This document shows positions 48,206-55,745 of a stretch of 64,000 nucleotides of DNA, in pieces (the stretch's first letter is position 1; the number at the start of each line of letters is the position of its first letter). The position numbers and the translations under genes were made by a program. Below the pieces are notes generated by a model that was not told where the DNA came from, ran no database searches, and worked only from the letters and a program-made list of their open reading frames with translations. Origin of the DNA: Labia minor (lineage: Eukaryota > Arthropoda > Insecta > Dermaptera > Spongiphoridae); NCBI GenBank assembly GCA_963082975.1, contig OY720345.1:2617001-2681000 (forward strand), in the 5' to 3' direction.

Positions 48206-48260
48206 GCAGTGTATCCACTCGACTATCTCGCAAATTTGAATTGGATTAATTAACATATAT

Positions 48261-48291
<31 letters not shown>

Positions 48292-48297
<6 letters not shown>

Positions 48298-48862
48298 TTT
48301 GATATTTCCCCCCAGACCAAGCGAGATGGCGGCGAGCCACGTCGCACTCAATGGGCGGGGCCTGTAAACTTAAGACGCCGCGTAAAGGCTTTTACCCAGG
48401 TATAAAGAGGTCGACCCAAGTGTCTGAACACATAAGTAAAACAGTCAATCAACGCATCATGAAGTCCTCTCTTGAATTACCTAGTTATTAAACCCTTAGA
48501 CATAGCCAATAATTTTTGTATTCGATTATAAACCCGGATAATGTAAAGAGTGACTTTAAGACATTGACTAATTATATATCAGACGATCAGCTTCCAAAAG
48601 GCAGTTCATCCAGCGCCTCCAGTTCATCCAGCGCCTCCAGTACATTCGATTGTAGATACTACTATTTTACTCCAAGTGCCAAAAGTGTTAAGTGATTTGC
48701 TGACTCTCCAGAAAGTACGTAAGCCGACTTTATTATTATCTTAATGTCACTCTGCTTGAATTCCCTTTAAATTGATTAAATCTTTATAAAACTCTTCCGT
48801 TAATAAATTTATATTAAATCTACGACTCTCTGATCATTTCCCCTAAATCAAGAAATCCCACA
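48292..48862 (+). repeat. 5' LTR of the Gag-only element
   Basis: 571 bp, TG...CA. It carries a GGGCGGGGCC box at 48,353-48,362, a TATAAAGAGG box at 48,401-48,410 and an AATAAA signal at 48,802-48,807. A TTCATCCAGCGCCTCCAG unit is repeated twice in tandem near 48,604-48,642. Between 48,807 and 48,808 it keeps the empty site of the Helitron found in the 3' LTR. Confidence 0.93.
48401..48410 (+). promoter_or_regulatory. TATA box of the 5' LTR
   Basis: TATAAAGAGG lies about 110 bp into the LTR, after a GC box. Transcription would be expected to start about 30 bp downstream, near ACACATAAGTAAAACAGTCA. The same box is at 51,775 in the 3' LTR. Confidence 0.65.
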
Positions 48863-48865
48863 AAT

Positions 48866-48883
48866 TGGGGGCTCGTCCGGGAT
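48866..48883 (+). other. primer-binding site, tRNA-Pro type
   Basis: TGGGGGCTCGTCCGGGAT lies three bases after the 5' LTR. It complements the 3' 18 nt of tRNA-Pro (with CCA) along its whole length, the same primer site known from murine leukaemia virus. A complete 18-nt match supports recent function. Confidence 0.92.
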
Positions 48884-48954
48884 TTGAATTAAATATCCAC
48901 AAAGTGGCTGGGATTTTAAATAATAACGCGCCAAAAATAATTCTCTAACTCAGA

Positions 48955-51447: not shown

Positions 51448-51665
51448 GTGAAATAGTGAAAAAGTGAAATATGAGTGAAATAGTGAAAAGTAAAATGTAA
51501 GTGTAATATTAAAATAAAGTGATAAAACAATACTAACAAAGTGATCTAGTGTAATAAAATAATAATGTTTAAGATGTTATTTTTATGTTCAAATTGTTTT
51601 TAAGTTTAGAGAATTTTTGAAACTGTGATCAAGTGAGGACACTATGAAGGTCAGGAATGGCCGAT
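51448..51665 (+). other. 3' untranslated part of the Gag-only element
   Basis: A GTGAAATATGAGTGAAATAG unit is repeated just past the stop codon. The purine-rich AAGGTCAGGAATGGCC next to the 3' LTR is the likely polypurine tract. No pol remnant is present in these 218 bp. Confidence 0.65.
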
Positions 51666-52181
51666 TGCGGGTTTGATATTTCCCCCCAGACCAAGCGAGA
51701 TGGCGGCGAGCCACGTCGCACTCAATGGGCGGGGCCTGTAAACTTAAGACGCCGCGTAAAGGCTTTTACCCAGGTATAAAGAGGTCGACCCAAGTGTCTG
51801 AACACATAAGTAAAACAGTCAATCAACGCATCATGAAGTCCTCTCTTGAATTACCTAGTTATTAAACCCTTAGACATAGCCAATAATTTTTGTATTCGAT
51901 TATAAACCCGGATAATGTAAAGAGTGACTTTAAGACATTGACTAATTATATATCAGACGATCAGCTTCCAAAAGGCAGTTCATCCAGCGCCTCCAGTTCA
52001 TCCAGCGCCTCCAGTACATTCGATTGTAGATACTACTATTTTACTCCAAGTGCCAAAAGTGTTAAGTGATTTGCTGACTCTCCAGAAAGTACGTAAGCCG
52101 ACTTTATTATTATCTTAATGTCACTCTGCTTGAATTCCCTTTAAATTGATTAAATCTTTATAAAACTCTTCCGTTAATAAA
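51666..52181 (+). repeat. 3' LTR of the Gag-only element, first part
   Basis: 516 bp, identical by eye to 48,292-48,807. It stops at AATAAA, where the Helitron begins, and continues for 55 bp at 55,493-55,547, giving 571 bp in total like the 5' LTR. Confidence 0.95.
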
Positions 52182-52295
52182 TCTATATATATAAAAAAAG
52201 GTTTTTGTCTGCACATTGCTCAGAATTTAAAAATTTTTGCATATCTTCGCGTTTCATGACCTCTAGAATCCAAAAGTGACTTTAGAATTTTTCAC

Positions 52296-52366
<71 letters not shown>
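52296..52366 (+). repeat. (GTCT)n microsatellite
   Basis: A pure run of about 17-18 GTCT units lies just inside the Helitron 5' end. A tract at this place is a common Helitron/Helentron feature. Confidence 0.95.
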
Positions 52367-54279
52367 CGGAAAATTACTATTTTATAGACTCAGAATTGGC
52401 TGAACCGATTTCTTTGAAATTACATCACAATATTCTTATATACCTCTAGAGTAACATAGGCTATACATTTTATTAATATCTTATCAATAACCGCAGAAAT
52501 TAATTTTTTAAAGTTTATATAATTCTCCGTGTTGTTCATTCAAGAGCAGCTCGCGGCTCACTGTCGGCCTAGCGGAATCATTTCAAACAATGAATTATCA
52601 TAGAGTTTCCCAATCGAAGAATTATTATAATATTTCCCTTTTTATTTTAAATTCTAATATACAAATATCAATTCAATTAAATAATTTATTCTAAAAGTTC
52701 TCAATTTAATTAAAATATTTATTAGATCATATTTTTATCTTAAATTATTTTTTATTTAATTGAATATTTCTTCTTTTCTATAATATATATATAATAATAT
52801 ATAAATTTTATCATTGAATAATAAAAAAAAATATTATTTAACCTGAATTAAAATGACTGAATTATATTATCTTTGTTTTTTATTTTAATTTAATTACTCT
52901 ATTATTAATTACTAAATATATATATATATTATATATAAAATTAAAATATGATGATATAAAGTTGTTTTAAATTTTTGACATTTTTAAATTGGGTATATTT
53001 TTTAAATTTATTAAAATGTCTTTTTTATTTATTATGTTTAAAAGATTCATTTTTATTATGTGATATTAATAAAAAATAACGATGCTCTGTGCAAGTCGAA
53101 TCATGTTGCACATAATTAAATAACAATTGCCAAACAAAGAATATAATATTTTTTTAAATTCTTATATTTAAATATCATTTCAATTAAATAATTTATTCTA
53201 AAAGGTCTCATTTTAATTAATTTAATAAAATATTTAAATCACCATTCAATTTTTTATTAATAGGCTTCTTTTTTTATTTTTAATTTTTAATAAATTCTCT
53301 TTTTTTGATATGATATTAATAAAAAATAATATTAAATTGTATATATAAATATAAAAATTAGAATATTTGAATTTTTTTAAATTTTAACACATGTAATCAA
53401 TCATATGCATTAAGAATGGAAAATTTTTAAAATCAACTTGCTATTAAATTCAGAAAAAAAATACTGATATATAGAATATATAGACTATTCGAATATAATT
53501 TAAAACTCTTTCTCTCCTTCTATTTTAAATTAAAAAAACGGAGTTTTAAGAAATTTAGATGCCATATGCAACATGGGTGGGTAAATGAATTGGGCTGGAA
53601 GAGGAGGCAATTTATAATTTTCTTCTAATTCAGATTTAGGACAAATCGTACAACATTATATCAAATCTCGCTAAGAACATTCAATATTTTTGTACACAAA
53701 ATATTCAGAGTATTGGCTAAGCGTATCACTCACAATCAGTTTATATTGAAATTTATATAAATTAACAAAGTAAAAATTTTTATTTTTTTAAATTTTATTA
53801 TAATGAATCAAAAAAAATTAAATATATAGATCACATGATTAAGAGAAGCAAAAAACTTAACAGAAAATAACTGTTGGATGGAGGTCGGACATGACAGAAA
53901 CTGTAAGCGAAATCTTCATATTGCGACGAATAATTTTCAAATCCCCTAGCACCACAGAATTTAAGTTTCTTTTAAGGAAAATAACTATGATCTAAAAAAA
54001 TTAATAAATGAACTTAATAATAAAAAAAACAAATAAATCAATTAATTTAAATTAATACTATTAATGAATGTATATATTGGTCATTTATCTATAGTTTTAT
54101 ACCGTTAATTTTTATAAATTGTCTCAAGTCTCTATTTTTGCATTTTCTCAAGTTTCATTATAATTAAAAATATTCAATAATAATCTAGCAATGAAAATAA
54201 AATACCAAAATGTAATGATCAAGAAATATTATACTCTATTATAACATATACAATACTTATAAACTATAGGCGGAGGAAA

Positions 54280-55260
54280 TATTAGGAGATATCATTGCGG
54301 GTTCAGGCCAAATCGACCAACATTAATTAAGATATTTTCATTATGACAGATATTAGGAACAAAACCGCGAATTCAATATTTCTGTTCACTAATTATTTGT
54401 AGACTTTAGTAAAACATACGCATAACTCAATAGATCCGGATAAACTTTTTCAAATTTTCAATCTTCAAATTTCTCTTGAAGGTAGTAAAGAAAGAATAAG
54501 ATGCGGAAATCAATTGTAAAATATTAGGTTACTCAGACGACTTAAATATAATAGGAGATTCGGCAATTGCAATTACAGATAGCGAGGAAAATTTAATGGA
54601 GGTTTGAAATTAATAGTGATAAGAAAAAATATTTAGTAACAAAGAGGAAGAGTATTAACATACAAAATCTTAATATACAAAATGTAGAATTTGAATATGT
54701 AGAAAAATTGAATGTAATCACGAAGGATAATAATATTTGAGAAGAATTTAAATCGGGGTTGCAATCGGGAAACGCCTGTTATCTGCAATAAAGAGGCTTA
54801 TCTCTTCAAAATTATTATCAAAGGGAATATATAAAAAGATTATTTTGCCTGTTGCATTATATGGGTGGGAGGCATGGTCTATGATCCTTGGAGATGAGAG
54901 TAGATTCAGAGTATTTGAGAATAGGATTCTTCCCTGCATTTATTGGCCAAAGAAAGATGAGGTCACCGGGTATGAGGGAGACTGTCTAACAAGAAATTGC
55001 ATGGCCTCTCTGCATCTTCAGAAATAGTTAGGGTTATAAAAGGGAAAAAGCTGCGATAGGCAGGGCACGTGGCAAGAATGGGAGAGGAAAAAGATATTGG
55101 TGGGAAGACCGATTGGAAAACGTCCGCTTGGAAAACCAATGACGCGTAGGAAGGGACGTAAGAGAGATGGAATAAGGGCTCAGGATAGGGACACTTGGAG
55201 AAATGTGGTTGTTGCGGCTAAGAACTTTAGAGTATCTTTGAGCCACATAGGTAGATAGAT
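54280..55260 (+). pseudogene. LINE reverse-transcriptase fragment (in HelA)
   Basis: The broken translation shows, in order, an RPNRST-like block near 54,310, VDFSKTYA near 54,400 and a YADD-adjacent region without a clean catalytic box near 54,540. INSDKKKY at about 54,610 is followed by LQSGNACY near 54,757. The open piece 54,845-55,027 holds LYGWEAWSMILGDESRFRVF and ENRILPCIYWPKKDEVTG. RQGTWQEWERK- and GKTDWKTSAW-like blocks follow near 55,060-55,135. It is the longest LINE piece among the HelA copies and still lacks the endonuclease. It is not functional. Confidence 0.75.
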
Positions 55261-55745
55261 ATAACATATACAATAATAATATATATAATTAATATAGTGA
55301 TTAAATTAAAATATATTTTTTAAATAAGAACACAAAAAGAAATGAATGTTTTATGTAATATACTGATTGAAACAAAATGGATGAAAACCTTTTAATACTT
55401 TCAACCACCAAATACTATGTACAACTCGGGGGTACAGGGGGCGGAGCCCCCGTCTAGGTGTGAAGAGCGCCGAAGGCGCTCTGAGCAGCTAGTTTATATT
55501 AAATCTACGACTCTCTGATCATTTCCCCTAAATCAAGAAATCCCACATATATATATTTAAATTAAATTTAAATTATAAATTAAAATTAATATAAATAATA
55601 TTTATTAAAACAGCCCACCATGTTTGGCCAACTCTTTGTTGATGGATATTTGTAATGAATTAATTAATATATTCCAAAGATGATGATGATGATGATGATG
55701 AGAGCATTAAAAAATGAATCTTCCGGATGAGCTACATTTCTCAAA

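Follow-up and report, generated by a model that had tools for sequence, protein, structure and literature searches.

The locus examined here raises the question of the order in which three mobile elements, each lying within the next, came to occupy a single site, and of what the innermost one, a Helitron, can tell about how its family moves. The window (that is, the whole stretch of 64,000 nucleotides that was analyzed, C2:2617001-2681000 of a genome of 604 Mb and 71 contigs) harbors a three-level nesting, in which an outer repeat is split by an LTR element, whose 3' LTR is split in turn by the Helitron. The account given here, in which we have high confidence, is that the locus records three ordered insertions and that the last of these came from a young, high-copy Helitron family that a RepHel transposase probably mobilizes in trans. 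The layers and their parts are as follows.

48204..48291, plus strand: 5' part of the outer HINE/Helentron-like repeat, aligning with relatives at 44654, 60114, 33080(-) and 21715(-)
48292..48862, plus strand: 5' LTR of 571 bp (TG...CA), uninterrupted, with the empty site between 48807 and 48808
48863..51665, plus strand: internal region of a gag-only LTR retrotransposon, with no pol frame of at least 80 aa in the ORF list
48866..48883, plus strand: primer-binding-site-like TGGGGGCTCGTCCGGGAT, 3 nt past the LTR, recognized by eye
48955..51447, plus strand: gag ORF of 830 aa, open in the window, with zinc knuckles (PF00098, E 5.6e-07; PF03732, E 8.4e-05)
51666..52181, plus strand: first 516 bp of the 3' LTR (0/516 differences from the 5' LTR)
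52182..55492, plus strand: non-autonomous Helitron of 3,311 bp (TC...CTAG), between A and T
52296..52366, plus strand: (GTCT)n tract near the Helitron 5' end
54752..55255, plus strand: decayed pieces inside the Helitron, with related stretches elsewhere in the window
55437..55451, plus strand: upstream hairpin of the Helitron, GGGGGC-GGA-GCCCCC, with an internal CTAG next to it at 55454-55457
55464..55482, plus strand: terminal hairpin of the Helitron, AGAGCGCC-GAA-GGCGCTCT, 10 nt before the 3' end
55493..55547, plus strand: last 55 bp of the 3' LTR (0/55 differences from the 5' LTR)
55548..55745, plus strand: right-hand part of the outer HINE/Helentron-like repeat, lacking the 3' hairpin of its family (homology was measured as far as 55718 and judged by eye beyond)

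Retrotransposon insertion makes both LTRs from one template, and therefore a Helitron present in just one of them arrived later. The two LTRs were compared piecewise, without joining the halves of the split one: 48292-48807 matches 51666-52181 without a mismatch over 516 positions, and 48808-48862 matches 55493-55547 without a mismatch over 55. The coordinates that a sequence-only reading had assigned to the LTRs and the Helitron are thus exact, as is its sum of 516 + 55 = 571 bp, to which the pieces add up without loss or gain; and the LTR identity, which had been judged by eye, is now a count of 0/571 substitutions, so that a merely similar pair is ruled out. Because the Helitron splits the 3' LTR while the LTR pieces match exactly and the 5' LTR is intact, the order proposed earlier, first the LTR element and then the Helitron, is safe. 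An assembly artefact that joined two repeats could in principle have made such junctions, given that both repeats have near-identical copies elsewhere in the genome; but it would have had to place the junction exactly at the ends of the Helitron family and at A|T, and to leave LTR pieces that total 571 with nothing lost or gained, and is therefore extremely improbable.

Comparison of the 5' LTR with the split 3' LTR also bears out the Helitron ends previously proposed, namely TC...CTAG between A and T: the target within the LTR is AATAAA|TTTATATT, and the insert 52182-55492 is TCTATATATATA...GCAGCTAG. The window copy has the 5' TC and 3' CTRR ends of a canonical Helitron, a hairpin near the 3' end (an 8-bp stem that ends 10 nt before it) and an A|T target that was not duplicated on insertion, the A side being the weaker part of this signature. 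Genome-wide, the 34-bp 3' end of the family occurs in about two thousand exact copies; the next base is T at 2,023 and another base at 8 (2,031 in total; 99.6%), the reversed-pattern control for this search yielding 0. Exact 5' ends number 2,267, of which 1,896 are preceded by A and 371 by another base (84%); part of the non-A flanks are head-to-tail joints between copies, there being 47 exact CTAG|TC joints in the genome. The target is hence almost strict on the 3' side and looser on the 5' side. An end at the internal CTAG (55454-55457) is excluded both by the LTR, which resumes only after 55492, and by the T that comes after the 34-bp 3' end at 2,023 of its 2,031 places. The window Helitron lacks a transposase frame. 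Its decayed pieces (54752..55255) presumably resemble a non-LTR reverse transcriptase in its C-terminal part; a Pfam search with two of these relic pieces returned no family over its cut-off.

The outermost layer had been described as a split Helentron-like copy. The split is confirmed by four relatives within the window that are uninterrupted across the LTR insertion point (44654-44808, 60114-60341, 33080-32917(-) and 21715-21562(-)), but the label is only partly supported, because the split copy, which has the family's 5' end (from 48204), lacks its 3' hairpin end and hence a 3' boundary. The alignment of the relatives reveals a subterminal inverted repeat (ACTATCTCGC/GCGAGATAGT) together with an AC-rich tract further in and a palindrome at the 3' end, and 48204..48291 carries GACTATCTCGC, which is half of that inverted repeat. 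Helentrons and HINEs insert between T and T.

The LTR element has paired TG...CA LTRs, the primer-binding-site-like stretch (48866..48883, putatively of the tRNA-Pro type) and gag, whose frame contains, by profile search, zf-CCHC and a Retrotrans_gag domain just under its curated cut-off. Gag is the only sense frame of more than 94 aa within the element, and this copy is non-autonomous. When 40 of 47 candidate LTR matches in the genome were scored, 38, the window's own 5' LTR included, ran from 1 to 571 across the Helitron site; the other two were the window's 3' LTR (1-523, which by chance extends a few letters beyond the true break) and one match of 1-546. The target duplication of the element falls within a TA tract and for that reason is not exactly readable: the flanks are compatible with a length of 4 or 6 bp but not with one of 5.

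How recently this element inserted is constrained by its LTRs. Zero differences over 571 sites correspond to K of up to about 0.005 at 95%, which, for an assumed rate of 3e-9 per site, puts the age of the pair below roughly 0.9 million generations, a bound rather than a measured age. The very recent insertion proposed by the sequence-only reading accordingly finds support in the LTR identity, though only as an upper age limit. Gene conversion between LTRs could, moreover, mimic youth, in which case both the element and its Helitron could be older. The LTR family contains tandem LTR arrays (C9:32389874-32401604), and LTR-LTR recombination therefore probably occurs; conversion nevertheless leaves unexplained the letter-for-letter match of the Helitron, microsatellite length included, to two copies elsewhere, and on balance it is quite improbable.

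That match emerges from the Helitron family itself. The 40 best-scoring of 3,399 candidates are all full-length at 99-100% (one from position 3), the other 17 matches listed beside them being partial pieces; 30 full copies were fetched. All 30 end in CTAG and 29 start with TC; one copy (L015), which is without 2 bp at the 5' end, was excluded from the substitution count. The remaining 29 are of equal length outside the (GTCT)n tract, whose 15-24 repeats account for their length differences, and over 3,243 bp they differ from the majority by 0-3 substitutions (pi 0.0004). The window copy (L010) and those at L009 on C6 and L011 on C1 are identical in every letter over 3,311 bp, while their 1.5-kb flanks are unrelated, none being common. 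The 30 full copies are biased toward youth, inasmuch as they are the best-scoring of 3,399 candidates. A less biased sample, consisting of every fifth of the first 95 3'-end sites listed (19 loci, all on C1, each with an intact 34-bp end), has 17 loci at which 547 or more of the final 633 bp match at 94.2-100%, and 2 with other interiors. The activity of the family has thus extended over time, yielding older and younger members, and the window copy belongs to the youngest of these. Recent Helitron activity in this genome, as claimed from the nesting, is thus supported, the LTR pair contributing less to this than the genome copies, three of which are identical over 3,311 bp.

At several loci the family forms composites, in which a 5' fragment precedes a full copy. 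The arrangement [1-807][1-257][full] was seen at two loci that differ in their outer flanks and agree in having G at 502. Likewise, [1-1317]n[full] was seen at two loci with dissimilar outer flanks, C at 2980 being common to them (the numbering leaves out the GTCT tract). G at 502 is the weaker mark of common descent because it is present in other copies (5/29 of the best-scoring ones), whereas C at 2980 occurs in 1/29, that one being the composite's own C5 locus. Most simply read, each two-locus composite was copied as a unit. With regard to how composites originate, the junctions at 1317, 807 and 257 correspond to A|T sites in the reference copy and that at 1496 to A|C; TA-rich sequence surrounds the junctions near 610 and on C9, which are not placeable to the base, and one junction in a C5 composite has three extra letters. 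The 1317->1 junction is present at 3 sites in 2 loci. At C5:11.95M there is, furthermore, a nested insertion whose remainder is kept, [1-610][deleted copy][611-745][full][746-3311]. These junctions fit a process in which one Helitron inserts into another and the nested pair would then be copied beginning at the outer 5' end and stopping at the first 3' end met. Circular concatemers or template switching could instead have joined fragment to full copy, and extracts of published reports describe Helitron circles and tandem arrays (PMC4778049, PMC5876387, PMC5148889). The 47 head-to-tail joints and the three consecutive, equal [1-1317] units at C5 agree with such an origin, as does the failure to find a founder for the 1317 composite, a genome search for its reciprocal junction, 3311->1318, giving 0. 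Set against this are the positions of the 1317, 807 and 257 junctions at internal A|T sites and the surviving remainder at C5:11.95M, and concatemers or template switching therefore seem a doubtful, though by no means negligible, source of the composites.

Nesting followed by copying concerns the first 3' end met; in one case a 3' end seems to have been passed. The copies at L009 (C6) and L037 (C10) have a common 3' flank (1500/1500) but not a common 5' flank. Slices totaling about 2.2 kb, compared as far as 5,219 bp downstream of the Helitron, contain no mismatch between the two loci, whereas at 9 kb downstream 110/151 positions mismatch. The common block, which includes 2.9 kb of other DNA and a second Helitron, starts at the TC end of the first Helitron, with A before it at both loci; the first Helitrons themselves differ in GTCT number (24 on C10, 17 on C6). 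The second Helitron reaches CTAG at C10, and at C6 it stops inside its upstream hairpin (the equivalent of 55437..55451), followed by T. Because the second Helitron extends to CTAG at C10 and is cut inside the hairpin at C6, C10 is likely the donor locus, and C6 would hold the daughter copy from a transfer to another chromosome in which the 3' end of the first Helitron was passed. This is one such pair only among 30 copies whose 1.5-kb flanks were compared, as an ordinary segmental duplication might also produce; yet a duplication has no reason to begin at TC with A before it at both loci, or to end inside the hairpin of a second Helitron and then continue with T, and it is an unlikely explanation of the pair.

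A PF14214 profile search of the genome for helpers gave 104 matches, and four RepHel loci (L070-L073) were fetched with their 3' side. Two of these loci (C5:34.91M and C4:72.53M), which match each other at 99.7% across 5.5 kb, encode Helitron_like_N and PIF1 domains in long open frames, and their 3' terminus is that of the window Helitron family; they are candidate helpers for that family. The 5' end of a mini-Helitron stands directly before this terminus at both loci, so that the helper terminator looks as if it had been taken over from a nested mini-element. No clear helper 5' end was seen in the 1.1-kb stretches upstream. Neither Helitron terminus was seen at L070 and L073, and the RepHel family with 1,652-aa frames was set aside as a helper, the 7-kb stretch of the single copy considered (L070) having neither.

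The Helitron boundaries, the target preference, the identical copies, the two-locus composites and one block that extends from a 5' end past a 3' end are all read directly from these loci. In the history favored here, the HINE/Helentron-like repeat inserted first; a gag-only LTR retrotransposon then entered a TA tract of that repeat, and a non-autonomous canonical Helitron was finally copied into an AT dinucleotide of the 3' LTR. By rolling-circle chemistry, a RepHel transposase from a helper such as those on C5 and C4 would move the family in trans: copying would start at the 5' TC end and run to the 3' end, where hairpin and CTAG would signal a stop, and the product would enter between A and T without target duplication. 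A bolder proposal can be put forward only tentatively, namely that the family is still moving today, that an intact RepHel helper acquired its 3' terminator from a mini-Helitron that had nested downstream of the helper ORF, and that new mobile units routinely arise when nested elements are copied, beginning at the outer 5' end, as far as the first 3' end.

It is useful to have the donor, the daughter and the empty site of natural Helitron movements side by side. At near-zero divergence, a single genome here permits counts of 3'-end bypass, of composite formation and of target choice, and it also contains candidate helpers whose frames are open. In kind, extracts of earlier reports already describe young identical insect Helitrons, tandem arrays, a nested origin of multi-terminus elements and bypass (PMC6544945, PMC5148889, PMC3288121, PMC4778049, PMC5876387, PMC4067079). 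The outer-family relatives share with HINE/DINE-1 elements (non-autonomous Helentrons), as described in part of PMC4067079, the subterminal inverted repeat, AC-rich tract and 3' palindrome, whereas the split copy differs by having no 3' end. The likeness to Hel1, for which 11 copies identical to the consensus are reported from Pieris rapae in an excerpt of PMC6544945, lies in young, identical copies, and rests on copy identity rather than on the 30-bp ends. In maize, according to a portion of PMC3288121, nested Helitrons yield elements with extra termini; nesting as the source of such elements is common to both cases, but there the inner 5' end is the start and three 3' ends are kept, whereas here there is an outer 5' end and one 3' end. 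With the canonical animal Helitrons Helibat and Helraiser, for which passages of PMC4778049 report that the 3' end is bypassed in cell culture and that bats have new 3' ends, the family has the following in common: 5' TC, 3' CTAG with a nearby hairpin, an A|T target, a RepHel transposase (here candidates) and 3'-end bypass with flank transduction. The likeness drawn is one of such features, and the process is read here from the natural loci of one genome. By comparison with these systems, the window Helitron is ordinary in kind, unusually young and clear, and accompanied by natural evidence that is unusually complete.

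The PF14214 search of the host genome for RepHel, the Helitron transposase, gave 104 matches, among them seven loci that each score 195.7 bits and whose open frames span 1537-1652 aa:

C9:43365333, RepHel locus
C9:43358460, RepHel locus
C9:45506044, RepHel locus
C10:14925745, RepHel locus
C1:82181971, RepHel locus
C5:81088381, RepHel locus
C2:51174103, RepHel locus

These equal-scoring loci represent a second autonomous Helitron family, probably a young one; the ends of the window Helitron's family are absent from L070, the one 7-kb stretch inspected among the seven. The same search placed five decayed RepHel matches, again equal in score and spaced at ~9.8 and ~5.7 kb, within C5:46740114-46771612, a region that appears to hold relic RepHel in tandem repeats. 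Movement of other DNA is indicated elsewhere in the genome, where 2.9 kb of it would have been carried between two sites:

C10:1736560 and C6:430933, putative Helitron bypass donor/daughter pair

As to the gag-only LTR element, whose gag frame contains a 99-bp tandem duplication (window 50621-50818; 98% identical), its internal region (window 48863-51665) gave 58 listed matches, from 40 of 52 candidates scored. Because 21 of these 58 stop at internal position 1,332, most relatives seem to share the first part of the element but not its middle. Among the pairs listed, adjacent LTRs of the family lie ~3.4-3.8 kb apart, start to start (5.5 kb in one pair), which would leave scant space for pol. 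At C9:32389874-32401604, four such LTRs follow one another at a uniform 3,720 bp, an arrangement that points to a tandem array of LTR-internal units.
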